IMG/VR virus record: IMGVR_UViG_3300022752_000167
Location: 1 to 39,649 of that record
Source of the DNA: a virus
Reading direction: 5' to 3' (one strand)
DNA: 39,649 nt
Position numbers and translations under genes: made by a program. Of the stretch, positions 2,758 to 21,202 are shown one piece after another; position 1 is the first letter of the stretch, and every line of letters starts with the position of its first letter. A model generated the notes under the pieces. The model had not been told where the DNA came from, searched no databases, and worked only from the letters and a program-made list of their open reading frames with translations.

Positions 2758-3010
2758 CCTCCCGGAGCCTCCGGGGGCTAGCCCCCCCCCCTTCCTAAAA
2801 AACAGGGTCCCCCCTCAGAGACTCCCAAAAATAAAAAGGGACCCCCTAAATAATTTCATGGGTCCCCTTCCAAAGATTCTCTCAAATATTCCCCCTTTTA
2901 TTAAGAAGGTACTCTTTTGGTTCTTCTTTATTCTTTTCTCTATTTGTTACTTGTTACCAATAGTAAAAATTTTAACAAAATAAAAAACCCTCATTTCTGA
3001 GGGTTCTTTT
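2758..3010 (+). ncRNA. Candidate small RNA unit (promoter to terminator)
   Basis: A self-contained unit of about 250 bases that begins just after a near-consensus promoter and ends in an intrinsic terminator. The 5' part holds a hairpin (CCCGGAGCCTCCGGG) and GGCTAGCCC. It then has GGGTCCC (2805), GGGACCC (2838) and GGGTCCC (2860), so the middle copy can pair with either neighbour but not both. The second half is AT-rich and could encode a 41-residue membrane peptide (2858-2983). It lies at the join between the GC-rich island and the AT-rich genome. Whether it acts as RNA, as mRNA or as both cannot be decided from sequence. Confidence 0.5.
2858..2983 (+). CDS. Possible 41-residue single-span membrane peptide
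   Basis: The frame starts ATGGGTCCC and encodes a 41-residue peptide: a basic amphipathic start (GPLPKILSNIPPFIKK), a strongly hydrophobic span (VLFWFFFILFSICYLLPIV) and a short basic tail (KILTK). That is a credible single transmembrane helix, as in small phage lysis or superinfection-exclusion peptides. There is no Shine-Dalgarno sequence. The start codon sits in a loop that GGGACCC/GGGTCCC pairing would close. AT-rich sequence alone can give hydrophobic frames rich in Phe, Ile and Leu, so this may be spurious. Confidence 0.3.
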   Translation: MGPLPKILSNIPPFIKKVLFWFFFILFSICYLLPIVKILTK

Positions 3011-3012
3011 TT
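2982..3012. terminator. Bidirectional terminator
   Basis: Stem AACCCTCA / TGAGGGTT with loop TTTC, flanked by AAAAAA on the left and TTTTTTT on the right. It serves the plus-strand 2758 unit and the minus-strand 3021-3515 gene. Confidence 0.9.
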
Positions 3013-3020
3013 TAACTGTT

Positions 3021-3515
3021 TCATTTATCTCTTATACCGGTATATCCTAAGCCCCCCTGGGAACGGAGGCGAGTTGCTCTAATATATCTTTCCATATCTT
3101 CTCTATTTGCAGTACCTTTTCCGGGACCACCCCCTGATGCTGGTCTACCGGAGGGGACGAGGAAATCTTCGGGGGACATCCCGGACTCGTAATTCCTCTC
3201 AACATTTAACATACCCATGTCGCCCAGAACTCTAATTATAGATGCTTTTTCATCTTCGTTTTCTGGTTTGTGAATTTCGTGGTTTGGGTCTACTAACGCG
3301 GTTAATATGGACTTGTAGTTCAACTTTCGTTCAATATTTCTATTAACATTTGATATAATCCCTGAAACGGTTTTAGGGTCGCTGCTTCCGATGCCAGACC
3401 GAGTTGACAATGGAGAGGTTCGTATACGAGCCTCATTCAAAACTGCTCTGAGTTGCTTATTTTCTTCTTGAAGTTGCTTAATTTGATTTAGATAAAAATT
3501 TTCGTATGTTCCCAT
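3021..3515 (-). CDS. Coiled-coil protein with LNE/A prohead-protease-like site
   Basis: A 164-residue protein. Residues 1-30 form a helix (NFYLNQIKQLQEENKQLRAVLNEA) with heptad character that ends in LNE followed by Ala. This is the L/I-x-E cleavage consensus of the T4 gp21 prohead protease, and the same LNEAR string occurs twice in the 4098-5486 protein. The middle is helical and charged; the C-terminal part is Gly-rich (SGGGPGKG). I do not recognise a family. The start has a ribosome-binding site (GAGG, five bases spacing), unlike most late genes here. It lies head-to-head with the 3546 gene. A prohead scaffold, core or internal protein is a reasonable inference. Confidence 0.7.
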   Translation of the reverse strand: MGTYENFYLNQIKQLQEENKQLRAVLNEARIRTSPLSTRSGIGSSDPKTVSGIISNVNRNIERKLNYKSILTALVDPNHEIHKPENEDEKASIIRVLGDMGMLNVERNYESGMSPEDFLVPSGRPASGGGPGKGTANREDMERYIRATRLRSQGGLGYTGIRDK

Positions 3516-3532
3516 ATTTACCTCATCATATC

Positions 3533-3540
3533 TATAAATA
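3533..3540 (+). promoter_or_regulatory. T4-type late promoter box
   Basis: Exact TATAAATA, then five bases (ATTAC) and the ATG at 3546. In T4 this box spans about -13 to -6, so the predicted +1 is the A of the ATG. The gene has no Shine-Dalgarno sequence. Confidence 0.75.
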
Positions 3541-3545
3541 ATTAC

Positions 3546-3821
3546 ATGCTTTCATTCAAACAATACTTAACTGAAAAAACTGGTGCATGGCAACGAAAAG
3601 AAGGAAAAGATCCTGAAGGTGGATTGAATGAAAAGGGTCGTAAAGCCTATGAGAGAGAAAACCCAGGAAGCGATCTAAAAAGACCACAGCCTGAAGGTGG
3701 AAAGCGTAGAGACTCTTTCTGTGCCAGAATGAAGGGTATGAAGAAGAAGCTGACAAGTAAAAAGACTGCAAATGATCCTGACTCAAGAATCAATAAGTCC
3801 TTGAGAGCATGGAATTGCTGA
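3546..3821 (+). CDS. DUF6321-like basic protein with capsid-targeting-like tag
   Basis: A 91-residue protein. Residues 1-10, MLSFKQYLTE, resemble the capsid-targeting sequence of T4 internal proteins (MKTYQEFIAE), with a Glu at the expected prohead-protease cut. The rest matches my recollection of DUF6321: GAWQRKEGKDPEGGLNEKGRKAYERENPGSDLK in outline, then RRDSFCARMKGMKKK, and a C-terminal RINKSLRAWNC. It is strongly basic (many Lys/Arg), so the mature form could bind DNA. It is driven by its own late box, and the next gene starts two bases after its stop. Inference: it is packed in the prohead and processed there. Confidence 0.8.
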   Translation: MLSFKQYLTEKTGAWQRKEGKDPEGGLNEKGRKAYERENPGSDLKRPQPEGGKRRDSFCARMKGMKKKLTSKKTANDPDSRINKSLRAWNC

Positions 3822-3822
3822 G

Positions 3823-4020
3823 ATGCTTTCTTTCTCTCAGTTTCTTTCAGAACAAAATTCTGAACAAAATTTTTTGGATAAAATAAAAAAAGAAGAAGAA
3901 GCTTTTCGATCAGGTCTTCAAGGTCAAACTCCAGAAGAGATAGAGATTTGGGTTTCTAACTGGAGACAGGCCAGAATGAACCAACTTGGCCTGAATGTTC
4001 CTGCATATAATTTTAATTGA
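3823..4020 (+). CDS. Small tagged protein, predicted capsid cargo
   Basis: A 65-residue protein that begins MLSFSQFLSEQN, the same tag as the 3546 and 5883 genes, with a predicted cut after Glu10. The remainder (NFLDKIKKEEEAFRSGLQG, TPEEIEIWVSNWRQARMNQLGL) looks like two amphipathic helices. No family is recognised. It follows the 3546 gene with only one base between stop and start (TGAGATG), so it should be translationally coupled to it. A sigma70-like promoter (4017-4045) begins at its stop codon. Confidence 0.75.
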   Translation: MLSFSQFLSEQNSEQNFLDKIKKEEEAFRSGLQGQTPEEIEIWVSNWRQARMNQLGLNVPAYNFN

Positions 4021-4045
4021 CAAAACATCCCTTGGTCGATACACT
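4017..4045 (+). promoter_or_regulatory. Sigma70-like promoter upstream of the 4098 gene
   Basis: TTGACA, 17 bases, TACACT. The leader to the ATG at 4098 is about 45 bases and can fold into a small hairpin (TCGC..GCGA) and AAGAAA/TTTCTT. Together with the late-like box at 4086 it would give this gene two promoters. Confidence 0.6.
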
Positions 4046-4085
4046 TCGCTGTGTAGGCGATCAACAAGAAATTTTGTTTCTTTAT

Positions 4086-4093
4086 TATACATA
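4086..4093 (+). promoter_or_regulatory. Late-promoter-like box
   Basis: TATACATA (one mismatch to TATAAATA), then AAGT and the ATG at 4098. The flank AAAGTATG is the same as at 38512-38526. Confidence 0.5.
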
Positions 4094-4097
4094 AAGT

Positions 4098-5486
4098 ATG
4101 ACAAATAATAATTGGATAAGATCTATTTCTAAATCATATTCTCAGTTAAATGAAGCACGGGATGATCGACCCGTAAACGATTGGAATGCTGGTGGTGGCT
4201 TTGCTGCCTTTGATGATGCTCTGGGAAGAAAAATGCAAAGAGTTGGTTTACTAGCATTTTCTATGATACCTTCAGATCATATCAAAAGGCATGGCAGTCC
4301 ATTTAATCCAGATGGATCTCTTAACCCAAATCATAAAATTGTTCGTGATGAAATTCAGATAGCTAAAAGAATATTAACAAACCGGGATGCATCTCACCGG
4401 AATGCATCGGATGAACAAATTTTATCTCACATTCGTCTTATACCGAGGACGGGGGATGGTGGAGTTGAAACTGGAGATTTTCATGTACATATACATTCCA
4501 CTCCTCAAACACCTAAACTTCAAGAAAATAGATTTTTTAATTACTTAAATGAAGTTAATCAGGCAAAATCTTCTCAGGTAGAAGGCGAAAGAGGAATAGG
4601 ACGCAAATCCAGAATCGGTAGAACTCCTGAAAATTCAGATAGAGCAGTTTTATTTGCTACTGGCGCAGCTCATGCTCAACAGGGGCTTCCTCCTCATCCT
4701 CAAGGAGTAAATGATCCTCATTACATGGATGGCTATAAATCTATAGCTTCTCCAAATTTAAATGAAGCTAGAAAAATGAAGCCTACATCTACGGATAAAA
4801 AACGAAATACAAAAATTGAAATAGCAGCAAGAGAGGCACATCGAATTGCTGCAAATGCAATTTCCAGCATACCTGGTGCTAAAGCCCTTAAAGAATATCC
4901 AGGACAACCATTTTATGGTGATGAAGATCCAGAACATTTGAGCGTAGTTGCCCATTTGGGTGCTGTTGCTCCAGCAGTAACAGATCCAGAAGAAGCAATT
5001 CGTCTTGTTGCCAGGAAGCACGGAGTTGATCCAGAAGCAGCAATCGCAGCAATTCCAACGAGTGCTCCAATGGGTGCTAGAGAAACTGTAAATCGCATGG
5101 CTGGCCTTAAAGTAGAAAATATAAATAATAACATGAAGAATAATAATAAATCTTGGATTCGTCAACTATCAGAATCATACATCCGTCAAGCTCTAAATGA
5201 AAATAATGATATACATGCAATAATAGACGAAAGACACGCTGATCTTACTAGAGGCAGAAGTACTGGAGAAGTGAAGAAAATTTTAGACGATGCTGCACAA
5301 AAATTTGGTCCATTTAGAAGTATAGAAGCCGCTGCTGATCATATCGTATCTAAGCATGGATATCTGTTCCCGGGGGAACCAGGTGATAGATTTGACACTG
5401 ACGATTGGCATAATGCGTTATTAGGACTGGACTACGACGATAGAGGCAGAAGCAATGATAGCCCAAACGACACTTACGGCGGTTAA
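4098..5486 (+). CDS. Multi-site LNE protein: tandem predicted prohead-protease cargo
   Basis: A 462-residue protein of unknown family. The string LNE occurs at residues 17-19, 150-152, 221-223 and 366-368; two copies are followed by AR, one by V and one by N. L-x-E is the cut consensus of the T4 gp21 prohead protease, so cleavage would give segments of about 133, 71, 145 and 94 residues after an N-terminal tag. The N-terminus (NNNWIRSISKSYSQLNE) is repeated inside the protein at about 348-368 (NNNKSWIRQLSESYIRQALNE), directly after an internal Met346 that has its own late box. Segment 1 has a His-rich patch (DFHVHIHS); segment 3 is Ala-rich and helical. The gene ends at a bidirectional terminator. 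Inference: a fusion of several tagged capsid-cargo genes. Confidence 0.75.
   Translation: MTNNNWIRSISKSYSQLNEARDDRPVNDWNAGGGFAAFDDALGRKMQRVGLLAFSMIPSDHIKRHGSPFNPDGSLNPNHKIVRDEIQIAKRILTNRDASHRNASDEQILSHIRLIPRTGDGGVETGDFHVHIHSTPQTPKLQENRFFNYLNEVNQAKSSQVEGERGIGRKSRIGRTPENSDRAVLFATGAAHAQQGLPPHPQGVNDPHYMDGYKSIASPNLNEARKMKPTSTDKKRNTKIEIAAREAHRIAANAISSIPGAKALKEYPGQPFYGDEDPEHLSVVAHLGAVAPAVTDPEEAIRLVARKHGVDPEAAIAAIPTSAPMGARETVNRMAGLKVENINNNMKNNNKSWIRQLSESYIRQALNENNDIHAIIDERHADLTRGRSTGEVKKILDDAAQKFGPFRSIEAAADHIVSKHGYLFPGEPGDRFDTDDWHNALLGLDYDDRGRSNDSPNDTYGG
5120..5127 (+). promoter_or_regulatory. Internal T4-type late promoter box
   Basis: Exact TATAAATA inside the 4098-5486 gene, five bases before an in-frame ATG (5133). 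Box, spacing and tag-like N-terminus all match the stand-alone tagged genes. Confidence 0.65.
5133..5486 (+). CDS. Nested in-frame tagged protein (C-terminal part of the 4098 gene)
   Basis: A predicted 117-residue product that starts at Met346 of the long frame: MKNNNKSWIRQLSESY, then IRQALNE and NND. It begins with a second copy of the long protein's N-terminal tag and has an LNE cut site after residue 23. The mature part contains RGRSTGEVKKILDDAAQKFG and a helical AADHIVSKHGYLFPG region. A late box five bases upstream supports independent expression. It could be either a separate product or simply a relic of gene fusion. Confidence 0.5.
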   Translation: MKNNNKSWIRQLSESYIRQALNENNDIHAIIDERHADLTRGRSTGEVKKILDDAAQKFGPFRSIEAAADHIVSKHGYLFPGEPGDRFDTDDWHNALLGLDYDDRGRSNDSPNDTYGG

Positions 5487-5504
5487 ATAGTTATAGGAAA
5501 AACC

Positions 5505-5540
5505 AATAAAAAAACCCCGAAGAGATTCGGGGTTTTTTAT
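5505..5540. terminator. Bidirectional terminator
   Basis: Stem ACCCCGAA / TTCGGGGT with loop GAGA, an A-run before and a T-run after. It separates the convergent 4098-5486 and 5542-5883 genes. Confidence 0.95.
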
Positions 5541-5541
5541 T

Positions 5542-5883
5542 TCAGTTTCCTGTTGCTCTTCTCCACTCTTCTTCACTTCCAAACCTATCCATATCAGCCT
5601 GCATTGCAGCAAGTTCTTGCTTTTCTTCATCAGTCATACCGTCTGGGCCTTCTTCTTCTGCTCTCTTTATCATCATAGCACCATGAGTATAACCTTCTTG
5701 GTAATCCGGGTTGTCTGCGTACAATGGATGGAAGTCATGTGCATTCATTCCATGAAATTTGCCAAGTTCCCTGATATCAGCAGGAGCCTTGAGAGGATGC
5801 TTTCTTGGCTGTGATTCGCTTGACATCCAGCTAGGATCGGGGGGAGTGGTTTGTTCGATGATGAATTGTCTAAATGATAGCAT
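5542..5883 (-). CDS. Small tagged protein, predicted capsid cargo
   Basis: A 113-residue protein that begins MLSFRQFIIEQ, the same capsid-targeting-like tag as the 3546 and 3823 genes, with I-x-E at residues 8-10. The body is acidic and His/Met-rich in the middle (FHGMNAHDFHPLYADNPDYQEGYTHG in outline) and ends in a charged helix (EEKQELAAMQADMDRFGSEEEWRR). The DNxxYQEGYxHG part looks like a conserved small-protein core, but I cannot name the family. It is expressed from a minus-strand GATAAATA box six bases upstream, back-to-back with the GP88-like gene. Confidence 0.75.
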   Translation of the reverse strand: MLSFRQFIIEQTTPPDPSWMSSESQPRKHPLKAPADIRELGKFHGMNAHDFHPLYADNPDYQEGYTHGAMMIKRAEEEGPDGMTDEEKQELAAMQADMDRFGSEEEWRRATGN

Positions 5884-5889
5884 ACAACA

Positions 5890-5904
5890 TATTTATCATA
5901 AATA
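5890..5904. promoter_or_regulatory. Back-to-back late promoter boxes
   Basis: Plus strand CATAAATA (5897-5904), six bases before the ATG at 5911. Minus strand GATAAATA (5897 to 5890), six bases before the ATG at 5883. The two boxes share one base. Confidence 0.65.
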
Positions 5905-5910
5905 ATGAGT

Positions 5911-7131
5911 ATGCTATCAAACAAAGCAAAATTCATTCGTTCCTTAATAGAAGGGTGGGATGGTAAAGTTTACACTCCAGAAACAGGTAATGTTTCATAT
6001 TCTAAACTAAATGCTGCAATGAGAGAAGCCTCAGCTGAACTTGCTCATCCAGAGAAATCAAAAGCTGGTAGAGAGTTGTTTCAAAAAATGTTTAGAAACA
6101 AAAGAACAACTGATGGAAGAGTAATTAAAACTGGTAGAGTCTTCTTAACCGATCAAGCAGCAAATCCAAAACTTGAAAAAAGCGGAGTGAAGTTTGGCAA
6201 GTATCATACTAAAGGCTTGACTCTTCTTCCTGCTAAAAAATCGGGAAGAATCAATATGTGTCCTTGCGCTACAGTCGAATGTGAAACTGTTTGCCTCAAC
6301 ATGAAAGGCAGAGGAGCAATGGCCCAAGGAGCAAGAGGTTATAGAACAAATCTTTTACTCGACCATACGAAAGAATTCATGCACGGTCTTGATGCGGCAA
6401 TTGAGCATCATTCTACAACTGCAACTCAAAGCGACAAACAGCCAGTAATGCGCTTGAATGTCGTTTCAGATTTAGTGTGGGAACAACATGCCCCAGAACT
6501 ATTTGAAAAACATAAAGGTGTAAAATTTTATGATTACACCAAGATTGCAAATAGAATGTTGAATCCAGATAAAAGTTTAAAGAAACTTCCAGACAATTAT
6601 CATCTAACATTATCAAGTACTGGTATTGTTGGAGATAGTGAAAATTGGGAAGATTTACAGCATATTCTTCGCCAAGGCGGAAGTGGAGCAATGGTTTTCA
6701 AAACACTTGCTGGCAGAGGAACTGAAGGTAAAAGAAACTATAGGCCACCAGCACAACTACCAAAATATTTAAAATGGACTCACGAAGGAGTGCCACATGT
6801 TGCTGTTGTTGTTGATGGTGACGAACACGATTTAAGATTCAAGGATAGAGAATTAGCAGAAGCTTCTGGAGCATTTAAGCAAGCAGAAATAGACAATCCA
6901 GGAGCAGTTGTTGTCAGAGGTACTGTTGCTGGTTTGCGGCTGAAGGGCGGAAAGAAGGATCTGGAAACAGCAGGAGAATTTGCTGTAGATATGGGTGATG
7001 GTCACACCATTGATGTTGATGCAGTAAGAGCAGCAGGAAAAGCACCAAAAACAGTTCCAGTAACAATTGGTGGCCAGAAACTAAAAGAATCTCTTCAAAT
7101 TTTCATTAGAGGAATTTATCTAAGAGGCTAA
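5911..7131 (+). CDS. GP88-family protein with capsid-targeting-like tag
   Basis: A 406-residue protein. Its core matches the phage 'gene product 88' family: LTLLPAKKSG, a cysteine cluster CPCATVECETVC at 117-128, GRGA, RLNVVSDLVWE, KFYDYTK, NYHLTLSSTG and a late VVVDGDEHDLRFKD. The family is widespread in phages and plasmids and has no proven activity; the conserved cysteines suggest metal or Fe-S binding. Here the N-terminus reads MLSNKAKFIRSLIEG, with L-x-E before Gly15, as in the tagged cargo proteins. I prefer the ATG at 5911 over 5905 because the tag then starts MLS and the late box lies six bases upstream. The next gene starts two bases after the stop. Confidence 0.8.
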   Translation: MLSNKAKFIRSLIEGWDGKVYTPETGNVSYSKLNAAMREASAELAHPEKSKAGRELFQKMFRNKRTTDGRVIKTGRVFLTDQAANPKLEKSGVKFGKYHTKGLTLLPAKKSGRINMCPCATVECETVCLNMKGRGAMAQGARGYRTNLLLDHTKEFMHGLDAAIEHHSTTATQSDKQPVMRLNVVSDLVWEQHAPELFEKHKGVKFYDYTKIANRMLNPDKSLKKLPDNYHLTLSSTGIVGDSENWEDLQHILRQGGSGAMVFKTLAGRGTEGKRNYRPPAQLPKYLKWTHEGVPHVAVVVDGDEHDLRFKDRELAEASGAFKQAEIDNPGAVVVRGTVAGLRLKGGKKDLETAGEFAVDMGDGHTIDVDAVRAAGKAPKTVPVTIGGQKLKESLQIFIRGIYLRG

Positions 7132-7132
7132 T

Positions 7133-7579
7133 ATGAACTCACCAAATAAATACGGACACATTACAACTACCGGAATACTTTCTCAAGAAGCTTTGGAAAT
7201 GATGAAGAAACAAGGCTTTGAATATGTCGGTAGTGGAAAAAATTCTGCTGGAACTGATGAACATCATTTCATGGCTCCTAAGTTTGGAAAAAACGCAAAG
7301 ATGGATATTCTTCAGGGCGGATTTGCGGATTCGTGCGGAACGATGAATAGAATGACTGATGTGGAAAATCCACAGTCAAGCGAAAACATCATGGGCAAGG
7401 TGAATAATTTGCTCAGAATTCTTGGAACAGCAGAAAGCCAGAGAGAAAGAGCCAAGAAAAAGTTCTCTCGCAAGCCAAGCATGTTCTTCAACACTCCGAG
7501 AGACTTCGTACAATTTGGAATTGATCCACAATCTCCTGGAGCTATCAGAGGAAGATTCAAAGATATTGAAGAAGATTAA
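7133..7579 (+). CDS. Conserved-looking hypothetical protein downstream of GP88
   Basis: A 148-residue protein of unknown family. The N-terminal half looks compact (YGHITTTGILSQEALEMMKKQGFEYVGSG); the C-terminal half is basic (RERAKKKFSRKPSMFFNTPRDFVQF). It has two cysteines at most and no membrane span. It starts one base after the GP88-like gene's stop, so it is in the same transcript. It is convergent with the RCC1-repeat gene, whose stop lies two bases away; no terminator hairpin is evident there. Confidence 0.65.
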   Translation: MNSPNKYGHITTTGILSQEALEMMKKQGFEYVGSGKNSAGTDEHHFMAPKFGKNAKMDILQGGFADSCGTMNRMTDVENPQSSENIMGKVNNLLRILGTAESQRERAKKKFSRKPSMFFNTPRDFVQFGIDPQSPGAIRGRFKDIEED

Positions 7580-7581
7580 AT

Positions 7582-9522
7582 TTAAGATGATATAAAAATT
7601 GGATTTGATGGATTTATTATTGAACCAGATGTGAATCCGCCGAACCCATAAACCGGATCATCATTTCCCCAGAAATATAAATCTCCGTTTTCTCTGAGAG
7701 CGAACGATGCTCTTACCATTGCTCCTACAGCGACGCAATTTGCAGTTGCTGGATTTTTTAATATAGCTGGAACATTGATTTTACCGTCAGCTACTTCTCC
7801 CCACGCAACAACAGTGCCATCTTCTCTGAGAGCAATCGCATGATGATATCCGCCATCGACTTGTATAAATGGTCCAGTGGGAAGTCCACTAGTTCCATCT
7901 GAATTGACTATTGGTAAAGATTCTCCTAATTCGTTTCTATCCCATGCGAAAAGAGTTCCATCAGATTTTACAACATAACTGTTATAATAGCTACATGCAA
8001 TTTTATCTACACTGTTTGTAGTAGTTTTTAGAATCTTTACAGTAGGTGCTGTATTATCACCATAAGGTATTGTTCCATTACCGCTTCCAACTCTGCTATA
8101 AATGTTACTTCCGTTATTTTGCTGAGATCCGCTTCCGGTTACAACATAGTACCAGTTCCATCCCCATGTTTCTATTGTACCATCAGTTGTTAACAATAAA
8201 GTATGAGATCTACCAGCAGCAATGTCTGAATAGGTATTATTGGATGTTCCGAACAACGAATTGGGAGATATAACTCCAGACGATCCTGTATATCCATATG
8301 ATATAGACCCGTTGTCTTGTACCATAGGAATATTTTCTGCGCTCTTAGTCCATCCACCATTATAGGAATAATTTACACTATATGTTTGACCAATTGTTTC
8401 GCGCGAAAATTGATAATCATTAGGAGCACCAGTATCTGGATTCCAATTTAAAACATTAGCCCACGCAAAAGAACCATTGATAACTCTTGGATAATAAGTT
8501 TGACCGGGAAGACCTACATTTAAGATATAAGGAGAATCATATCCGCCCTCTGGATATGATTGATTATAATTTTCCCCATCATGAAAAGTACAACCAGCAC
8601 CCAAGAATCTGTATCTTCTCTGAGTAGTTGGGAATGTTCCATCAGGATCTACACAATCATTTACTTGAATTTCTGATGAATTGTTAAATGTATCTAAGTA
8701 TGATGAAAGTGTTTGGCCATATTTGAAAGAAACATAATTTTCCCAATCGGTAATATATAAATTATCACCTTGAACAGGTCTTGGAATTAAGCCGATATCA
8801 GTCAACACAGTATCAGGATCACTTAATTGATTTTCTCTGTTTCCTCCCCAAGCAACAACTTCTCCGTTTGACAATAAAGCTACAACATGATTTGCCCCCG
8901 CAGCTATTTTTGTTATAGTTACATTTTCTAATCTTCTACCAGGTTGTTGGTAGTATTGTAACTGCTTCATAAAATTTTCGGTTTGATCTATTATTTCTGA
9001 GTTGCCCCAAGAAATAACAGTTCCATCTGTCCGTAAAGCAGTCGCATTTCTATAACCAACAACAATTTGTTTGCATTTTCCTATGTTTGCTGGTGGAGTT
9101 AAATCTGCACCACCAACACCAGTATCATAATCTGGAGTAACATTTACAATACCATCCCCTATTTGACTGTCGATTATGCTGGGATCGGGATTAATACCAA
9201 TTAAATAATTTACAGTGCCATCTGCTGTAGTATAAAAAACTACATTAGAATAACCAAATGTAATGGATGAATAATTTTCTTGTATAGGAGAAATTCTTCT
9301 ATTATTACCACCAGATTCGTCCCCGACATCAGTAGCATCAAATCCTTCTTGATTGCTTAGTAATTGATTTTGTAATTGCTGTTCATTAAGGACTTGACCA
9401 TTGCTTTTCCACCTTTTTGTGGTAGGATCAAAAGTATACTTTGTACCAAGATAATCGACATATTCTGTTATGCCGTTTTCGTTCTTTTTAAAATTTCCGA
9501 ATCCACGCAAGAAGTTGTTCAT
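7582..9522 (-). CDS. RCC1-repeat (seven-bladed propeller-type) protein
   Basis: A 646-residue protein with at least six RCC1-type repeats: a G-x-x-H or equivalent followed by LRTDGTVISWG, LLSNGEVVAWGGN, LTTDGTIETWGWN, VKSDGTLFAWDRN, LREDGTVVAWGE and LRENGDLYFWGN. The repeats are split: two lie before and four after a large Tyr/Gly/Asn-rich insertion of about 200 residues that looks like a virion surface domain. The N-terminal ~60 residues (MNNFLRGFGNF, YTFDPTTKRWKSNG) resemble attachment segments of phage fibres. RCC1 propellers occur in large-phage virion proteins as binding modules, so a receptor-binding or decoration role is likely (inference). I chose the ATG at 9522 because a TATATATT box lies five bases upstream. 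Confidence 0.85.
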   Translation of the reverse strand: MNNFLRGFGNFKKNENGITEYVDYLGTKYTFDPTTKRWKSNGQVLNEQQLQNQLLSNQEGFDATDVGDESGGNNRRISPIQENYSSITFGYSNVVFYTTADGTVNYLIGINPDPSIIDSQIGDGIVNVTPDYDTGVGGADLTPPANIGKCKQIVVGYRNATALRTDGTVISWGNSEIIDQTENFMKQLQYYQQPGRRLENVTITKIAAGANHVVALLSNGEVVAWGGNRENQLSDPDTVLTDIGLIPRPVQGDNLYITDWENYVSFKYGQTLSSYLDTFNNSSEIQVNDCVDPDGTFPTTQRRYRFLGAGCTFHDGENYNQSYPEGGYDSPYILNVGLPGQTYYPRVINGSFAWANVLNWNPDTGAPNDYQFSRETIGQTYSVNYSYNGGWTKSAENIPMVQDNGSISYGYTGSSGVISPNSLFGTSNNTYSDIAAGRSHTLLLTTDGTIETWGWNWYYVVTGSGSQQNNGSNIYSRVGSGNGTIPYGDNTAPTVKILKTTTNSVDKIACSYYNSYVVKSDGTLFAWDRNELGESLPIVNSDGTSGLPTGPFIQVDGGYHHAIALREDGTVVAWGEVADGKINVPAILKNPATANCVAVGAMVRASFALRENGDLYFWGNDDPVYGFGGFTSGSIINPSNPIFISS

Positions 9523-9527
9523 ATAGG

Positions 9528-9537
9528 AATATATATT
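9528..9537. promoter_or_regulatory. Divergent late-like box between two virion genes
   Basis: AATATATATT is a palindrome. On the plus strand TATATATT lies four bases before the ATG at 9542; on the minus strand it lies five bases before the ATG at 9522. It matches TATAAATA at six of eight positions, so it is weaker than the exact boxes. Confidence 0.4.
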
Positions 9538-9541
9538 GAGT

Positions 9542-10291
9542 ATGGCTAAGGCTAAAGTTGATAAAAAGTTCATGGCAGCAGTTCTTGGAATGGCGACTTT
9601 AGGGGCTGGACTATTTGGTTATGGTGGTTATAAGCGATTTGGGGCCTTTAACAAGCCAGCACAGGCTTCCGCTCCCCAGCAGGCCCCACAGAGGCCAATG
9701 CTGGCAAAGCCAGCCCCCGCCAAGCCACCAGCAGCACCACAAGCACAGCCAGCACCCGTGCAGCAAACTGCTGCATATCAATTCTCACATCCAAGCATTG
9801 AAAAGATACTTGGTGGAATTGCGAAAGCAGAACATCGCGCAAATAAAAATATAGACCACACCAAATACGATCCCAGACTTATGATTCGAACTGGTGGTGG
9901 GGGTGGTAAATCAAGTGCATATGGACCATACCAGTTAACAAGAGATCTTGTAAAAGGATTGGTCAGAAATGATCCAGAAAAATTTGCACCAATTAAAGAT
10001 TTTACAGATAAATTTATTCAGCAGGGTTCAGCCTTTTTAAAAGCAAAAAATAATGACCCTCAATTTGGTTTGGGTCAAGAGGGAACATTGAGTGGGCAAG
10101 AGCATCATAATCTGCATATGCAATTGGGCGATCTTGCAATTCAAGGTTTGGCAAAGGAAAAGAAAATTAACTATAAGGATGGACTAACTCCAAATGAACT
10201 AAATACTATGATTCGCACATGGAGAGGCGCATCCGAAAAGGCAGATCCTGTATATTATAAAATTGTTCGTGATCATTATTTTAGTAATTAA
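9542..10291 (+). CDS. Membrane-anchored lysozyme/transglycosylase-like protein
   Basis: A 249-residue protein. Residues 8-28 (KKFMAAVLGMATLGAGLFGYGG) form a transmembrane or signal-anchor helix, residues 38-78 a Pro/Ala/Gln linker, and residues 84-249 a globular domain. The domain contains IAKAEH with Glu97 and SSAYGPYQLT at 124-133, resembling the catalytic Glu and S-x-A-x-G-x-x-Q pattern of lytic transglycosylases and virion lysozymes. It ends in WRGASEKADPVYYKIVRDHY. This suggests peptidoglycan degradation, either in the tail during DNA entry or anchored in the membrane. The assignment rests on motifs only. The next gene begins three bases downstream. Confidence 0.6.
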   Translation: MAKAKVDKKFMAAVLGMATLGAGLFGYGGYKRFGAFNKPAQASAPQQAPQRPMLAKPAPAKPPAAPQAQPAPVQQTAAYQFSHPSIEKILGGIAKAEHRANKNIDHTKYDPRLMIRTGGGGGKSSAYGPYQLTRDLVKGLVRNDPEKFAPIKDFTDKFIQQGSAFLKAKNNDPQFGLGQEGTLSGQEHHNLHMQLGDLAIQGLAKEKKINYKDGLTPNELNTMIRTWRGASEKADPVYYKIVRDHYFSN

Positions 10292-10293
10292 AT

Positions 10294-10923
10294 GTGATTG
10301 AATTAAACGAGGGTGAAATGTTAGCAGATAAATTTTGGCTTAATCCAGATAGTAAAATGATCTGGGTTGCAGATAATCATATAAAGACTCTTGTAGAAAA
10401 TCCTGTTCTTTTTGAATATGATGGTAGAGAAGGTCTTGAAAAACAATTAAGATTTTATCATGCATTATTTGGAACAGATTCTGTAAAATATAAAGACGCA
10501 GAATCGTTTTATGCTATTGCAAACGAAAAAGTATATACCGACCAATTAACTATTTTTGAATTTTTTGTTTACGATAAAGGATTTGTTTGGTGTGAATATT
10601 CGGATGGAGTGTTGACTCTTAGATCAAATTCTCTCAATTTCTTAAAAGAAGGATTGGATGATCTAAAAGAACATTTGCACGAAATTCACACTGTACATCT
10701 GATCACTGTGTTTATGGATGGTCGAATGATTAGACATAGATTAATTGGTGATAATGAAATTAAGGTGTTTTTGAATGAGATGATACTTCCAAGAAAACCA
10801 AAATATATTGAGCAAGTAAAAATCATCGATCCAATAAAACTAGAAAAGAAAAATAACAAAATTGCTGATTTTTTTGTTAAAATTATAAATAAAGTATATG
10901 CTAAAAAGACAAAAACCAACTGA
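10294..10923 (+). CDS. Hypothetical protein, unknown
   Basis: A 209-residue protein with GTG start; an ATG at 10318 with a good ribosome-binding site (GAGG, five bases) is an equally likely start. It is a mixed alpha/beta protein with LADKFWLNPDSKMIWV near the start, Phe/Tyr-rich strands in the middle and a Lys-rich C-terminal tail (LEKKNNKIADFFVKIINKVYAKKTKTN). No family is recognised. Its 3' end contains the TATAAATA box of the next gene, and the two genes overlap by 26 bases in different frames. Confidence 0.65.
   Translation: MIELNEGEMLADKFWLNPDSKMIWVADNHIKTLVENPVLFEYDGREGLEKQLRFYHALFGTDSVKYKDAESFYAIANEKVYTDQLTIFEFFVYDKGFVWCEYSDGVLTLRSNSLNFLKEGLDDLKEHLHEIHTVHLITVFMDGRMIRHRLIGDNEIKVFLNEMILPRKPKYIEQVKIIDPIKLEKKNNKIADFFVKIINKVYAKKTKTN
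10884..10891 (+). promoter_or_regulatory. T4-type late promoter box
   Basis: Exact TATAAATA, then AAGTAT and the ATG at 10898. It lies inside the 3' end of the preceding gene and should drive the virion operon 10898-18885. Confidence 0.75.
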
Positions 10924-11365
10924 ATCTCCTGCCAGATTTAGTGCAAAATCAATGAACAGTCTGTTTGAAGCTGTTTCTAATGTTTGCTCTGAGCAACAAT
11001 ATATGTACGAACAGTCTCGTCCTGCTGGCGGCGGATTTATGCCAAGAAAAGGTGGAGGCGCATTTGGTAGTCCCGCTACAACTGATCCTACCGGATTAGC
11101 AGGCAAAAAACCATCTCACTCCGGTACAAATAAACCAGGATCTTACTTAAAATATGGTATAGGTATGCCAGCCTCATTATACACAATTGGTGGGGGACTA
11201 GAAGCCATTGATCAATTCTTCCCAGAAGTTGGAGCAAAAGGAGCAGAAATTGCTCTTGGTTTAGGTCTAGGCGCACTTGGTCTTGGTATAGACAATGTAT
11301 TTGGCGCAAAGGGATCGCCAATCAATACATCAAAGTTTAGAGGAAGAGGGTTTAGGGGTATATAA
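10898..11365 (+). CDS. Gly-rich protein with hydrophobic segment and LFE/A site
   Basis: A 155-residue protein. The N-terminus (MLKRQKPTESPARFSAKSMNSLFEAV) ends in L-x-E followed by Ala, another candidate prohead-protease site. A Gly/Pro-rich linker follows (RPAGGGFMPRKGGGAFGSP), then a long small-residue hydrophobic stretch (GAEIALGLGLGALGLGIDNVFG) that could be a membrane helix. The C-terminus is basic (KFRGRGFRGI). The start is fixed by the late box six bases upstream. It is first in a tightly packed operon; the next gene overlaps its stop by one base. The function is unknown. A membrane-active internal virion protein is one possibility. Confidence 0.65.
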   Translation: MLKRQKPTESPARFSAKSMNSLFEAVSNVCSEQQYMYEQSRPAGGGFMPRKGGGAFGSPATTDPTGLAGKKPSHSGTNKPGSYLKYGIGMPASLYTIGGGLEAIDQFFPEVGAKGAEIALGLGLGALGLGIDNVFGAKGSPINTSKFRGRGFRGI

Positions 11366-12054
11366 TGGCCCGTAAACGAAAAAATAAAGATATACCAGTA
11401 ATAGATACCGCTTCATTAGAACAAACTGAAGCTTTATTTAGACAAAAAAATTTACAAGAAACAGCAAGGAGATTGGTTGTTCCACAAGAACAATCATCTC
11501 CTTTTTCTTATAATGCAAATAAAAATCAAGCAGTTTTTTTAGATACTACTAGATTAGATGAGCTACAACAGCAAATAAGCCAGAACGCACAAAAATCTTT
11601 TGTAATACCAGAAGTACAAGAACAGCAATTCCCACCACCTAGATTTGTAGGTGATGGGATTGATGCATTGATTGCTGGGACACAAGACATCATTAATCAA
11701 AAACACAATCAAACTAATAAAATTATAACAGAACAAGAACTTCCAAACGATATAAAAGAACGGGAAGAAAAGTATGGAGTTCAGGTATTTTTTACCAAAA
11801 GTCCTTCTGAAATAGAATCATTATTGTTGCAAAGAATTTGCAATGTTGAATTTATTCGTTCGACATTTCCTAAAGGAAAAAGAGTTATTAGATGTACTCT
11901 AAATTCTGAATATATTCCTGGTGGTAAAGTAGGATTTGGAAATTATGGTGGTCTAGTTAAGGTCTGGGATGTCGAATTAAATGACTATAGAAGTTTTTAT
12001 GCTTCTACGGTTTTAAAGATAAGTTATGATGATAATCCGGGACAACCTAGCTAA
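11365..12054 (+). CDS. Protein with C-terminal WYL_2 (Sm-like SH3) domain
   Basis: A 229-residue protein. Residues 1-150 are Gln-rich and probably extended or coiled (EQTEALFRQKNLQETARR, QQQISQNAQKS). Residues ~150-222 carry a WYL_2/DUF2693-type SH3 barrel: LLLQRICNVEFI, KRVIRCTLNSEYIP and VKVWDVELNDYRSF. The stand-alone form of this domain is encoded at 1654-1953 in the GC-rich island, so the phage holds two very different versions. It lies in the late operon before the two large structural-looking genes, suggesting a virion-associated adaptor (inference). Confidence 0.7.
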   Translation: MARKRKNKDIPVIDTASLEQTEALFRQKNLQETARRLVVPQEQSSPFSYNANKNQAVFLDTTRLDELQQQISQNAQKSFVIPEVQEQQFPPPRFVGDGIDALIAGTQDIINQKHNQTNKIITEQELPNDIKEREEKYGVQVFFTKSPSEIESLLLQRICNVEFIRSTFPKGKRVIRCTLNSEYIPGGKVGFGNYGGLVKVWDVELNDYRSFYASTVLKISYDDNPGQPS

Positions 12055-12060
12055 TACATA
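12053..12060 (+). promoter_or_regulatory. Weak late-promoter-like box
   Basis: AATACATA, six of eight matches to TATAAATA, followed by four bases and the GTG at 12065. It is supported mainly by the recurring spacing. Confidence 0.3.
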
Positions 12061-12064
12061 ATGT

Positions 12065-12238
12065 GTGCCAAGAGACAACCACGAACTAGATACTTTATCA
12101 TACGAAGCTCGTAAAGCTGTTCTTGGCTACGAAAAATATTTGTTAGATCAAATCGATTGGAGAGATTTGGCGAAAATTATGACCGCTCTAAAAGAAACCT
12201 TAGAAGCAATTGAAGGAAAAAAGAAAAATGGGAAGTAG
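12065..12238 (+). CDS. 57-residue helical protein, GTG start
   Basis: A short frame that opens GTG-CCA-AGA and encodes 57 residues: DNHELDTLSYEARKAVLGYE, then KYLLDQIDWRDLAKIMTALK and ETLEAIEGKKKNGK. Composition and amphipathic periodicity look like a genuine two-helix protein, and codon use matches its neighbours. It fills an otherwise empty gap and overlaps the start of the 12228 gene by 11 bases, which suggests translational coupling. The function is unknown; a small assembly chaperone would fit the place. Confidence 0.6.
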   Translation: MPRDNHELDTLSYEARKAVLGYEKYLLDQIDWRDLAKIMTALKETLEAIEGKKKNGK

Positions 12239-14573
12239 AAGATGTTGTTGTAATGTAGCAGAAGTGTGTGAGGGGTGTTGTGCAGATTGTATGGTAAGCT
12301 ATACCTTGGAGAGAAAAGGACAATGGCTTGCTTCTGGATCCCCATTCGGTATTCCTGGAGATTCTGAAAATCCGCAAGGTTATGCCGATCCCATAATGCC
12401 ACAAGTTCCTGGTGATGAAATAATTTTAACTCATGGAGCTAGACTCGTTAAGGTAAATGGTGAAAACTTATTAGTTGGAAATTCAATAAGAAAAAGTTAT
12501 AGAAATATAGGAAGTTTTTGGACATGGTATCCTCCACCTTTCATGGTGGATTTTAGTCATAATTTTCCATCCTGTACAACTTTAAACGGTGGTGGTAGAT
12601 ATGGTTCTACTCCTGGTGCGTTTAGTTTGATAAGATGTTTTAGAGATTATGAAGGAGATTCTATTACAGGCAACAGAGATGTTTATTGTCATCCAGTTAA
12701 TAATACAGATGCTACTGAGAATGATGCATTGGCACAACAATTTTATTGTCAACACGACGATGAAACTTTTCAGGGAAAACCAAAATTTGATATTATAAGT
12801 GAATATGATCCTTATGATACATATCCTCAAAATCCAGTTTCTGCAATATTTAATCCTGTAGAAACTCCAAATAGCGTAAAATTTAAAGTAGGCGGTGCGT
12901 TAGGATTTAGATACGGATATCCCTGCTCAACAGAAGATGAAGATAAGTGCTGTAGATATGATAATGGATATACAGATAGATCAATAACAGGGCAAGGCTT
13001 TACAGAATTACATATCGCTGGTTTAAATGGACCAATTCAAAATAAAGAAAATGCCTGTAATTATCTGGGTCTTACCAAATACAGAAGAAGAATGTTAAAA
13101 AATTATTATCCTTGGGCATATCAAATTTTTTCATATGCTCTTGATAATCTTTTGCCATTTGGTAATCCCACTAAACATTGGGCATCTTTGGGAGTTGGTC
13201 CAGACGGAGAGCCATCAAATAGATTGGTAAATGTTGGACATAATTTAGTAAACTCGCAAGGCCAAGCAATAAATTTATTTTTAAATTCTTTAAGATTCCA
13301 ATTCATGGGATTTGCTTTTTGTGAACATCATTATGATGGTGCTTGCGGATGCAGCGAGTTTTCCGAAGATTTTAATCAAGATATTATTTTATCAAGATAT
13401 ATTCCCAGAAGATTTATTTTTGCATGTTCTGGAATTCCAATGTTTGAGTTTGACATATACGAAGCTGTGAAGGATGGAAAAATTTCTTCAGATCAACTAC
13501 CAGATGGTATTAATGAAATTCCTAAATTCATAGAATTGTGGAAATCTTTTACTGTTTGGTTTAAAAATCCTGCTAGAACTGAAGATTTGGAAATAACTGA
13601 TCAAGTTCAAGGCAATGTTTCAACATTAGGTGGAGTACCATTTATGAATACTCCTACACCTCCGACCATAAATGATTCTGACGGTCAGATAGGACAATTT
13701 AGAAAAATAATGAATCAGTTGACTAAAAATAATTTTGATGGGATTAGGTCAACAGATTGGAGATATCGTGCAACTCTTGATATAATTGAAGCAAATACTC
13801 TTTACAAAGAGGCAATAGCAAAAAGAAAGCTATTAGTTGATCCCACAGACACTAGCGAAGTTGATTTTGATATAATCGCAGCTGTAGGATCTTTTTCCTT
13901 CACTATAAATGATGTCATTGCAAATCCAGAAACATATTCTAGACAAATTTTTCCAAAACCATTAGGCCCTGTTAGAAAACGATGCAGAATGATAAATGCA
14001 CCAGTTGCAAATAGACCCTGGAATGATAATGGTTTTGGGCCAAATGTCTCTTTGACAAGCCAATACGGTCCTAATGTCTTAGTCCCTAAATCATTCCCGT
14101 TGAATGGCTCTCAGCCAGTTCAGTTTGTTGATTCTGACTATATTGATCTACAAGCTATTAAATGGTTTGATATAGGTAAACCATACAGAGATGCCCAATC
14201 ATCAGGAATTTATGGTATTCCGAAATATAGTGGAACTTTGGAAAATCCAGATCCAATTAATTATCCAGATATAAATTGGAATGAGAAAGATATTGCTGTA
14301 GATTTAAACAATAAACTATCGCATTTAATGCATACATATTTTATGACTCAGCCTAATGGTTGGGATTATTCGGGTTGGGGTCCTTTACCAAATGGTTCAA
14401 AGCCAGAAAATAATTGGTGGTGGAGAAGATTTTCTACTACTCCCGGTGGAGTTGGTTCTGTAGGTCCATTCTTTGCTACAGTAAATCCTCATTCTTTGAT
14501 AAGTAAAGTTAGTGGTGGTATATTTGAATATGCGTGGAATCCCGATGTTACTGGTTGGAGTGAGGAAAATTAA
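12228..14573 (+). CDS. Large structural-looking protein with N-terminal Cys cluster
   Basis: A 781-residue protein that begins MGSRRCCCNVAEVCEGCCADC, with eight cysteines in 16 residues, which is unusual for a bacterial or phage protein and suggests metal binding or disulfide packing. The body is rich in Asn, Pro, Tyr, Phe and Trp, typical of virion fibre or baseplate proteins, and has further cysteine pairs (ACGCSEFSED, DKCCRYD). It carries no enzyme motif and no collagen-like or coiled-coil repeats. The start at 12228 was preferred over TTG at 12210. Its ATG overlaps the preceding small frame and its stop codon overlaps the next ATG, so 12065-18885 is one unit. Function inferred as virion structural; no family recognised. 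Confidence 0.65.
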   Translation: MGSRRCCCNVAEVCEGCCADCMVSYTLERKGQWLASGSPFGIPGDSENPQGYADPIMPQVPGDEIILTHGARLVKVNGENLLVGNSIRKSYRNIGSFWTWYPPPFMVDFSHNFPSCTTLNGGGRYGSTPGAFSLIRCFRDYEGDSITGNRDVYCHPVNNTDATENDALAQQFYCQHDDETFQGKPKFDIISEYDPYDTYPQNPVSAIFNPVETPNSVKFKVGGALGFRYGYPCSTEDEDKCCRYDNGYTDRSITGQGFTELHIAGLNGPIQNKENACNYLGLTKYRRRMLKNYYPWAYQIFSYALDNLLPFGNPTKHWASLGVGPDGEPSNRLVNVGHNLVNSQGQAINLFLNSLRFQFMGFAFCEHHYDGACGCSEFSEDFNQDIILSRYIPRRFIFACSGIPMFEFDIYEAVKDGKISSDQLPDGINEIPKFIELWKSFTVWFKNPARTEDLEITDQVQGNVSTLGGVPFMNTPTPPTINDSDGQIGQFRKIMNQLTKNNFDGIRSTDWRYRATLDIIEANTLYKEAIAKRKLLVDPTDTSEVDFDIIAAVGSFSFTINDVIANPETYSRQIFPKPLGPVRKRCRMINAPVANRPWNDNGFGPNVSLTSQYGPNVLVPKSFPLNGSQPVQFVDSDYIDLQAIKWFDIGKPYRDAQSSGIYGIPKYSGTLENPDPINYPDINWNEKDIAVDLNNKLSHLMHTYFMTQPNGWDYSGWGPLPNGSKPENNWWWRRFSTTPGGVGSVGPFFATVNPHSLISKVSGGIFEYAWNPDVTGWSEEN

Positions 14574-17500
14574 TGTCTTGTATTTGCACATCACAACAGT
14601 ATATAGATCAAAACGGTAATATTCAAAATATTACCGAAGCTATGTGTGTTGAAATAATTGCAGATAATCCAGCTTGCTGTGATAATTTTGATTTTTCTTG
14701 TTATAAAAAAATATATTTTGATACAACATCTTTAAGTTATGTTGGCTGTAAAAATTGTCAGAATGAAAACATTTCTTGTTGTGAAGAGATACAAAACTAC
14801 ACAAATTATTTAAATCCCAATAAAGATAGCAATTGCTGTGAAAATTTTGATAGCTATTGTATAGAAGCAAAAAATGTATTAGAAATAGATAAAAATTCCT
14901 CTTGCTATGTTTCTAATGAAGAATCTACTGATAACTCATATTCTACTTTTACAGTTAAAAGTGGAATAGATCCCGATTTACCTCCACTGCCAGAGGGAGC
15001 TACACGAATATCTTGTCCTGGTCCAGATTGCCCTGTTGGTTTGATATGCGATAGTTGTTCGAATGATGGTTCTTTTTCAGTAATACAATATCAATGTGGA
15101 TGCCCCGGGCAAGAAGAAACAAGATATGCCTGTCCAAAATATTGTGTTGGTTTAGACCTAATTTGTAGAGAATGTTCGTTTGAATTAGACCCTGTAGATC
15201 AATTGGGATGTCAGCCTTGTACTTTTAATAGAATTTGTCCAGAAGCATGTGATGTTAATCCTAATCCAGAAATTTGTGCGTGTTTGGCATGTGATTTAAA
15301 TTATGGATATACTTCATATACTGCAACACCAGAGGTTTTTATGGCGGTTTGGAGTCCTCCTTGGGCATCTCAACAAAGACCGGATGAAAACACACCAGAA
15401 TGCGAAGATGCATGTAGCACTGCTTTTGGTTCTTGCGGAACTATAACTAAAGAAACTTATTCTTGTGAATATGCTCAAAGTCCACAACAGTGTCCAGGAG
15501 CTATAGGCGATACGCAATGTGTATGTTACGATCTTGGATTCAATTCAGCTGCATATACCAGATTTTCATCAAGAAAATTTAGATATAATGAATCGGGAAT
15601 ACAAAATACATCAATAAAAGCAACGGACGAAGAATTAATAAGATATAGACAAAACAACATAAAAACTGGATTGATTGTTTTACAAGGAAATTGTAGAAAG
15701 TGCTGCGATCCAGGAGAATGCAGTGAACCTCCACCACAAGAAATTGAAAGCTTTAATGCTGATTGCGTGACAAAACAAATGGACCCATATGGGTTTGCAA
15801 ATAATTGTTATGGTATGCGACCAGATGGTTCTTTTTTTTCTGATGAACCAAAAGAAACTGCTATTGCAATTATAAAAAATATTCAAGCGGGAAAAAACTC
15901 AACATATCTTGGATGCGTTGATTGTCCGGTTGGAGATCCTACCGCTCCCATATCTGGATGGAGAACCTCTGGAGTAGGTTTAATCGATTCTCAATTTTGT
16001 AATTATGAACAGCCAATAACATATTGTCAAAATCAAAATTATGTTTATGGAAAGCCTCTTCCACCGGAAGGAATAACAGGAGTATTTAAAATTTTTGATG
16101 CTCCACATAAATATGAACTGTTTTCTGAAGAATGTTGTTCATTAATAGACAGATGTTTTGAATCATCTTCTGAATGTGCTAGTGAATATGGTTCTGGGTG
16201 TAACGCAGTTATGTCTGATACTTGCGAAACCAGAGCATTCAGATTCTGTATACATGATGGTTGCTCAACATTACCAGAATCAGAAAGATCAAGTCAACCA
16301 TTTGTTCATTATTATCAGGGCGTAAGTGCAGGAGATGATCCATTTGGTGGCAGTGATGCAATAAATCAAAATTGTTTTCATACTTATAGTTTGATTGACG
16401 GTAGAACATATACTGATAATTTTGGAGATTCCACCACATTAACAATAAGTGGTAGATCGTCTTTGCCACCACAACAAACCGGAACCTGTTTTGATTATAG
16501 TGGAGCAGTTCAATTTAATTGCATTAAATTAATGGCAGATATAAGTGAGCCTGGAAACCCAAAGAGAGATGCTGTAATAAATTATTTTAAGAATTATTTA
16601 AAATTTGATATTAGTAGTTATCTCGATGATTGTTTCTGTTCTCATATGGATGTAGTAGATTTTAGTGAAACTGGACAGTCTATACCAGTCGAATATCCAT
16701 ATGTAAATCCAAATGGAGTAAAAAGCACAACACCTAAACTCTGTCAAAAAGTATTTGATTATGAAAATGGCAACGAAAATTTAAGAACAAATAATATAAA
16801 TTATCTTGGCCCATTTATAGCAACACAAGGGCAAATAAGAAACGCGGATCTATTAAATCTTTCGGGTGACGGTAGTTATGTTGATGCTAGTAATAATGAT
16901 TTTGTTGCCTTTACAATAGCTAACCCACAAGCAGTAACACCATATTCTTGGTCAAATGCAAATAGTCTAAATTCAACTGTAACAGATGATTATAATGTTT
17001 CTGGACTGATTACAAACAATGAACCAGATCAAAGACTAAACAGAAATCCATGTACTCCATGTCACGGATTTGTTCCACTATATCACGAATCTAATGATAA
17101 TGGTTTTATTTTAACTGATGAATATCTAAATTTACAAGGATATTCCAAGTATAAATTTTATGGAAATGTCCATGATGATGATGCATATAAAAAGATTCTT
17201 CCAAGAAAAACCTTAATAGAGCAAATAGAAACTCGTAGAGTTTATAATAGAGAAGTTTGCGAATTCATACAAGCAATTATTTGTTCTGGTATAGAAGTAT
17301 TACATATAACAGAACCAAAAAATAATGTTTTTTATACAAATCAAAATTTTAGTTCAGGATTAACTGGACCAGTCGATAGAGAAATTCTTAGTTCAATATA
17401 TGGATCTGGAATTTTTACCGACTATCCTTTGACTAATTTGCCTAATTATCTTGAATTAGACACATACACAACAAAAGTTATTGCAACTAATAATTTGTTT

Positions 17501-19886: not shown

Positions 19887-19888
19887 CT

Positions 19889-20416: not shown

Positions 20417-20705
20417 TGGTGAAGAACTTATCGGCAGGGTGGATTTCCATGAAGAGGAAGGATATTATGCAATCAGTAAGGCATATATTCTGATCCCGAT
20501 GGGACAGGGGCAAATTGGATTTGCTCCATATATGCCATATACCCGCGCAGAGGATGGCTTTACAATCAGTGAAGAACATGTTATGTTTATGATCCGTCCA
20601 ATGAGTGAAATGGAAACACAGTATACTTCAGCAGTCAGCGGTCTTGTTACTGCCCCAGCAGGAGCAAATAAGATTCTAGGCTCTGGTCTGAAGCTTACTA
20701 CCTGA
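20385..20705 (+). CDS. Sm-like phage protein
   Basis: A 106-residue protein that begins MSNVQILRLTSGEELIGRVD, followed by YYAISKAYILIP, QIGFAPYMPY and HVMFMIRPMSEME. The pattern (LxxGEExIG at the start, then strands with a late F.PYxPY) is that of the short Sm-like barrel proteins found in many marine T4-like phages. A role in RNA binding, by analogy to Hfq, is possible but untested. The start at 20385 is set by AAGGAG seven bases upstream; the ATG at 20379 lies too close to it. Confidence 0.65.
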   Translation: MSNVQILRLTSGEELIGRVDFHEEEGYYAISKAYILIPMGQGQIGFAPYMPYTRAEDGFTISEEHVMFMIRPMSEMETQYTSAVSGLVTAPAGANKILGSGLKLTT

Positions 20706-20707
20706 AA

Positions 20708-21181: not shown

Positions 21182-21202
21182 GTTTTGAAACCTTGGTATA
21201 GT
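21175..21202 (+). promoter_or_regulatory. Sigma70-like promoter of the tRNA cluster
   Basis: TTGACA, 16 bases, TATAGT, with TTGG directly before the -10. It points into the tRNA genes that start at 21233. Confidence 0.75.

Follow-up and report, generated by a model that had tools for sequence, protein, structure and literature searches.

Why do several small genes of one T4-like aquatic virus, apparently unrelated in their bodies, begin with nearly the same ten amino acids? The question is raised by IMG/VR virus record IMGVR_UViG_3300022752_000167, a partial record whose full 39,649 nucleotides (39.6 kb) are called the window here. Its genes match the T4-type gp32, gp26, gp19, gp4, gp48, gp53, and gp6 families, the T4 gene numbers being our assignment from PHROG descriptions. 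We conclude that the ten-residue starts are very probably T4-type capsid-targeting sequences, which would be removed by a gp21-type protease and would package diverse proteins. In the DNA itself, this reading draws on the tag, its conserved positions, the protease of a close relative, late promoters, and the modular joining of tag and cargo. Published mass spectrometry places tagged proteins in the virions of relatives. Three starts of the MLSF type are central to the argument.

3546-3575, plus strand: tag MLSFKQYLTE, predicted to be cut after Glu10
3546-3821, plus strand: DUF6321 protein of 91 residues carrying this tag (PF19846, E 6e-23)
3823-3852, plus strand: tag MLSFSQFLSE, the start of a 65-residue protein
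3823-4020, plus strand: the tagged small protein of 65 residues, family unassigned, kept in relatives G001 and G002
5542-5883, minus strand: tagged protein of 113 residues, family unassigned, with tag MLSFRQFIIE at 5883-5854

All three starts had been proposed in the initial annotation and were recovered where it placed them. Pairwise, they share 7, 7, and 6 of 10 residues, and no triple with at least 6 identities in every pair arose in 3000 shuffles (residues 2-31 of the 42 window genes). An aromatic residue at positions 4 and 7, Leu or Ile at position 8, and Glu at position 10 are present in each. The same three starts occur in G001 (L003; 78 kb, with ~95% identity across most of the genes it shares with the window and 87-90% in the tail region). 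In G002 (L004; 32 kb, ~80% identical to the window), the homologues of the 3546 and 3823 genes are tagged, and extra tagged genes begin with MLSFKKFLFE and MKSFRSFILE. The 3823 protein starts with MLSFSQFLSE or MLSFHNFLKE in G001 and G002. That the cargo behind each tag is unrelated, as had also been claimed, agrees with the family searches: the mature parts of the three proteins have no family in common, only the 3546 protein matches one reliably (DUF6321), and the window's other cargos gave no reliable match in NCBIfam and Pfam. No family of the T4 internal-protein kind was matched by the window cargos in PHROG, Pfam, and NCBIfam. The AlphaFold model of the 5542 protein (predicted local distance difference test, pLDDT, 55) was too poor for use. 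As a separate observation, the G002 protein starting with MKSFRSFILE (L004, 2549-1860, minus strand) has 229 residues and, by eye, a GNAT acetyltransferase-like motif; a second, truncated copy of its start lies at L004 1781 (minus strand).

In the leader of T4 IPIII, residues 4 and 7 are needed for targeting and residues 8 and 10 for processing (PMC9026906, a review of Black's work). These are also the conserved positions of the DUF6267 proteins, a family that came to light through one tagged member and was sampled, without selection on the tag, by peptide patterns of which a single one touched it. An aligned ten-residue tag was given by 68 of 71 distinct proteins, in 55 different versions. 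Glu10 is present in all 68, Phe4 in 48, Phe or Tyr at position 7 in 54, and Leu or Ile at position 8 in 54; entropy is 2.0-2.7 bits at positions 2, 3, 5, 6, and 9 and low at 4, 7, 8, and 10. The range of cargo is wide. Exact matches of the MKSFxQFLxE type in IMG/VR begin open frames in 80 of 80 cases among the matches listed and precede at least 19 cargo clusters, in which Pfam recognizes cytidylyltransferase, S-AdoMet (S-adenosylmethionine, SAM) lyase, Zeta toxin, lysozyme, and DUF5661; cargos of the MLSF set include DUF6267 and another Zeta toxin. L147 encodes a tagged SAM lyase-type protein (PF23780). Beside these, a tagged protein of L183 (897-1478, plus strand) has an ADP-ribosyltransferase-like fold by eye (YHGG...YGPGLYLT) and no Pfam match.

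Virion proteomes obtained by mass spectrometry have been published for the cyanophages S-CREM2 (PMC10665884, Table 3), S-SCSM1 (PMC9602691), and S-SZBM1 (PMC9146016). Virions of S-CREM2 contain three enzymes with the tag, namely a SAM hydrolase (MKDFDSFLEE), an APH-like kinase (MKRFDAFLTE), and a cytidylyltransferase (MKNFSSFLTE), as well as gp13 and gp136. The virion NMNAT (nicotinamide mononucleotide (NMN)-adenylyltransferase-like protein) of S-SCSM1 starts with MKSFLQFLKE. The sole non-structural enzyme named in the virion list of S-SZBM1, a cytidylyltransferase, starts with MRFRQFIIE↓A (the arrow marks the cut, here and below), nearly identical to the tag of the window's 5883 gene. ORF156 of S-CREM2, the homologue of a nucleotidyltransferase of the window described below, was detected in virions with 6 unique peptides; the fit of its own start, MKKLISE↓L, to the tag is no more than loose. 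A regular expression fixed before the genomes were read gave seven matches, four of them virion proteins (p = 0.022); in the control genomes it found only ipII and ipIII within 50-100 kb of T4 and nothing in the podovirus P-SSP7. Under a rule derived from T4 mutagenesis, which is looser and was written after the S-CREM2 data had been seen, 7 of 11 matches in the three phages pooled are virion proteins, compared with 129 of 719 proteins overall (p = 0.0009). The expectation that tagged proteins occur in virions was thus borne out for homologues and tagged enzymes of these cyanophages. Separately, S-CREM2 gp12 (OR473000, 7704-10313), a virion protein annotated as Cas9/Csn1, has a tag-like LRFASFMAE↓A at residue 17.

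A gp21-type protease, for which the initial annotation had advised a search, is absent from the window, a partial record, and present in its close relative G001 at 28182-28826 (Peptidase_S77, E 7e-36; phrog_207 "head maturation protease," E 2e-77). It adjoins homologues of gp22, gp23, and the portal protein and, when aligned with the T4 enzyme, keeps the motifs GELNHP and GVS(S/T)RG (GVSTRG in G001). Such a protease is encoded by 13 of the 17 long contigs that carry a tagged gene; the remaining four are partial records of ~99-118 kb, and the 18th record of that set is an untagged DUF6267 carrier. The end of the tag is of the same kind as the site in the capsid protein gp23, which aligns as FLTE↓A in T4, RLTE↓D in G001, LLTE↓A in S-CREM2, FLAE↓A in S-SCSM1, and ILTE↓A in S-SZBM1; the first of these we take to be the cleavage site of T4 gp23.

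Two families exist with and without the tag, and in both the versions differ exactly at the cleavage point, which upholds the proposal of a mobile module. Tagged DUF6267 proteins read M..F..(F/Y)(L/I)xE↓(E/S/D/A)KNxHMEHLED, whereas the untagged form, on cyanophage-type contigs, reads M(A/S)↓KNTHLEHLED; the tag stands in place of these two initial residues, and the exchange falls precisely at the cut. For DUF6321, MLSFKQYLTE↓KSPAWQRKEGK stands against untagged MA↓KSPAWQRKEGK; untagged relatives start with MA↓K(S/T)P at the junction of the tag, and long fusions also exist. On the DUF6321 tree, which is short and poorly resolved, the tag needs 3 changes, at least 2 of them forced by supported branches.

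Cargo also appears to have been inserted at the same kind of point, in the frame that starts at 4098.

4098-4154, plus strand: longer tag-like leader MTNNNWIRSISKSYSQLNE (LDE↓A in G001)
4155-4766, plus strand: cargo A, 204 residues, absent from G001, inserted precisely at the junction LNE↓A, with LNE as its own last residues
4767-5132, plus strand: cargo B (ARKMKPTSTDKK...), directly behind the leader in G001
5133-5201, plus strand: internal tag MKNNNKSWIRQLSESYIRQALNE, ~80% identical in G001
5202-5486, plus strand: cargo C, 95 codons including the stop

In G001, the only genome with a relative of the 4098 protein, the leader MTNNNWIRSISKSYTQLDE↓A is followed immediately by KKMKPTSTDKK. The 204 residues of the window are inserted exactly at this leader junction, and the end of the insert is again LNE↓A; the frame contains LNE↓A twice and one LNE↓N. 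The product of the internal ATG at 5133 begins with MKNNNKSWIRQLSESYIRQALNE↓N, and TATAAATA lies five bases upstream of that ATG. Behind the internal leader, the cargo of G001 has no detectable similarity to that of the window. From the sequences of these two genomes, we infer that the frame may be a series of tandem cargo cassettes, separated by gp21 or made partly from the internal start.

The timing of expression is suggested by T4-type late promoters.

3533-3540, plus strand: TATAAATA, late promoter with predicted transcription start at the A of the 3546 ATG
5120-5127, plus strand: TATAAATA, late promoter inside the 4098 frame, 5 nucleotides before ATG 5133
5890-5897, minus strand: GATAAATA, late promoter of the 5883 gene, in contact with the promoter at 5897 and pointing away from it
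5897-5904, plus strand: CATAAATA, late promoter of the GP88 gene, with predicted start at 5910, one base before ATG 5911
10884-10891, plus strand: TATAAATA, late promoter of the 10898 gene

Promoters of the TATAAATA type lie immediately upstream of 3546, 5133, 5883, 5911, and 10898. Start codons lie 5-6 nucleotides from TAAATA in most cases of the window's lineage and 5 nucleotides from it in 16 of the 19 cases from the MLSF set, whereas this distance is mostly 18-28 nucleotides in T4, S-CREM2, and S-SCSM1. T4 late transcription begins six bases after the motif; if this applies here, late messages are leaderless in the window's lineage. The promoters of the window and a gp55-type late sigma factor encoded by G001 point to late expression of the tagged genes. 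Further T4-type late promoters were seen at 23827 and 36022 of the window and in G001, G002, and L253-L298.

The initial annotation had also pointed to looser LxE sites, which fared unequally.

24406-24435, plus strand: nucleotidyltransferase tag MQYLTKFLRE, the pattern conserved in 21 loci
24406-25119, plus strand: nucleotidyltransferase (NTP_transf_2), homologue of the virion protein ORF156 of S-CREM2
5911-5952, plus strand: GP88 leader MLSNKAKFIRSLIE, read from the sequence
5905-7131, plus strand: GP88-family protein (PF17338, E 3e-30)
10898-11365, plus strand: protein with a leader ending in SLFE↓A (SLLE↓A in G002)

The case is very good for the nucleotidyltransferase. Its FLRE↓S belongs to a pattern M....xFLxE↓(S/A/N) that is preserved in 21 loci while other positions vary, and the same body follows the leaders MQYLTKFLRE↓S, MLNPRKFLLE↓A, MLHLSKFLSE↓S, MHYLRKFLQE↓S, MRYLHQFLKE↓S, and MKYLTSFLRE↓N. 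Against the T4 pattern, these have Leu or Pro at position 4, Phe7, Leu8, and Glu10. Remote relatives in L125-L128 are untagged, and no match to the nucleotidyltransferase was found among PDB sequences. The case is fair for the GP88, 4098, and 10898 leaders, which follow the capsid-targeting pattern only loosely. GP88 has SLIE↓G in the window and SLME↓G or SLLE↓G in relatives; its start may well be at 5911, as had been claimed, 6 bases past the first ATG (5905). GP88 gave a single weak match among PDB sequences, to a designed protein, and its AlphaFold model (pLDDT 33) was unusable. The LNE↓A of the 3021-3515 gene was rejected as a tag site, being no better than chance: (L/I)xE occurs within the first 30 residues in 16 of 42 window genes, compared with 23% of internal windows.

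Taken as capsid targeting, the tag would act as follows. The tagged proteins would be made late, and the tag would bind the prohead core via its aromatic residues 4 and 7, bringing the attached protein into the prohead. The gp21 protease would cut after Glu10 ((L/I)xE↓), and the released cargo would stay with the DNA in the head and most likely enter the host together with it. The window's own proteins would take the same course, from packaging and cleavage to injection and the action of each cargo. The tag would be a reusable module, joined to many unrelated proteins and, in two families, exactly at the start codon, with cargo exchangeable or insertable behind it. Because the tag is shared and tagged enzymes are present inside related cyanophage virions, these phages probably inject a swappable enzyme kit with their DNA. 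We hold it an evenly balanced proposition that many aquatic T4-like viruses possess an open modular delivery system with one address at the start codon and new cargo insertable at the protease site. One frame (4098) would then yield several mature cargos, and the injected set would include SAM lyases against restriction, nicotinamide adenine dinucleotide (NAD)-making adenylyltransferases, kinases, and nucleotidyltransferases acting before phage gene expression.

Targeting to the prohead core might instead have no purpose beyond scaffolding or structure, with the proteins degraded or kept in the head and the host receiving nothing. The T4 core proteins gp67, gp68, gp22, and gp21 also have (L/I)xE-type sites near their starts, and the DUF6321 genes of S-SCSM1 and S-CREM1 lie in a structural operon beside the terminase. 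We nevertheless consider this rather unlikely, since enzymes or toxin-like folds make up many of the annotated cargos (SAM lyase, cytidylyltransferase, zeta-type kinases, lysozyme) and several tagged enzymes persist in mature virions. It is very improbable that the shared starts merely survive from gene duplication, in paralogues recognizable only there, and are no functional address. Such a history would suit three MLSF genes within 2.4 kb with tags 60-70% identical, but the cargos are without similarity, the 80 of 80 listed MKSFxQFLxE-type matches beginning open frames span those 19 or more clusters, conservation picks out the four functional positions rather than the others, and untagged homologues begin exactly at the junction. 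Selection on translation, with the starts serving as start-region codons of leaderless late messages and the peptide likeness being secondary, would fit the late promoters that set the predicted transcription start on the start codon in the window's lineage. We give it scarcely any credence: this peptide pattern is also that of S-CREM2, S-SCSM1, and T4, where late promoters mostly stand 18-28 nucleotides off, and it is amino acid positions 4, 7, 8, and 10 that are conserved.

Several points weigh against capsid targeting and delivery as set out above. The contig, being partial, does not itself include gp21, and the virion evidence comes from cyanophage relatives rather than from this virus or its near kin. 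Cleavage after Glu is a prediction throughout this group. Four of the 11 starts that match the T4-derived rule, itself written with the S-CREM2 data already seen, belong to proteins undetected in virions, all four 55-165 residues long, and enrichment is not significant in S-SCSM1 alone or in S-SZBM1 alone. The tag of DUF6267 changes just once on its tree; mobility therefore rests on DUF6321 and on the variety of cargo.

Other features of the window were noted in passing. Positions 3000-11400 had no megablast match among phages. At the left end (1-2780), which matches no phage, GC is ~60% and poly-C runs occur, whereas GC is 31-42% from ~4 kb on; G001 ends at the same place as the high-GC left end (2786), which is possibly a chimeric assembly join. 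Beside the tagged genes, 7582-9573 (minus strand) encodes an RCC1-repeat protein whose relatives have LNE/LTE-like sites near residue 55. A cysteine-rich protein at one locus (window 14573-18349, G001 62100-66917, G002 11908-21663) varies in length among close relatives (1258, 1605, and 3251 residues). An inosine monophosphate (IMP) dehydrogenase/guanosine monophosphate (GMP) reductase-like protein by eye (18825-19886) is conserved in G001 and G002. Two alike small cysteine-pair genes (20708-21226 and 21384-21878, minus strand), HNH-like by eye and possibly homing endonucleases, adjoin tRNA-Gln and tRNA-Gly.

If capsid targeting is correct, the tag offers a mechanism for the recurrent enzymes in cyanophage virions. 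In a virus group that ranks among the most abundant in the ocean, a ten-residue start would then predict which proteins are packaged in the head and probably injected. The tag also supplies candidates for proteins that act early in counter-defence and host takeover, as well as natural targeting sequences that might serve to load proteins into phage heads.

Use of the capsid-targeting sequence for varied cargo in T4-like phages has been suggested before (PMC9026906), and this T4 review was the only item in the searchable open literature, subscription papers being outside its scope, in which "capsid targeting" and "cyanophage" occurred together. The virion NMNAT/cytidylyltransferase of cyanophages (PMC9602691, PMC10665884, PMC9146016) is tagged in all three phages, and the passages available from these reports give no account of its route into the virion. 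Within that literature, the tag in aquatic T4-like viruses, its link to cyanophage virion enzymes, and the junction-exact modularity appear to be new. The closest known system is the capsid-targeting sequence of T4 IPI, IPII, and IPIII (Mullaney and Black 1996, as reviewed in PMC9026906), IPII and IPIII starting with MKTYQEFIAE↓A. The two have in common a length of ~10 residues, aromatic residues at positions 4 and 7, Leu or Ile at 8, Glu at 10, and the presence of a gp21-type protease. They differ in that the lineages here are aquatic T4-like viruses and cyanophages, the cargo is often an enzyme rather than a small inhibitor as in T4, a cargo module has apparently been inserted at the cleavage point, and late promoters lie immediately next to the start codon. 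After injection, the internal proteins of T4 act as inhibitors of GmrSD restriction enzymes (PMC12373910), and those inhibitors, like the proteins described here, have a common leader and unrelated mature parts; an early part against restriction would likewise be apt for the SAM lyase-type protein of L147 and for the SAM hydrolase found in S-CREM2 virions.

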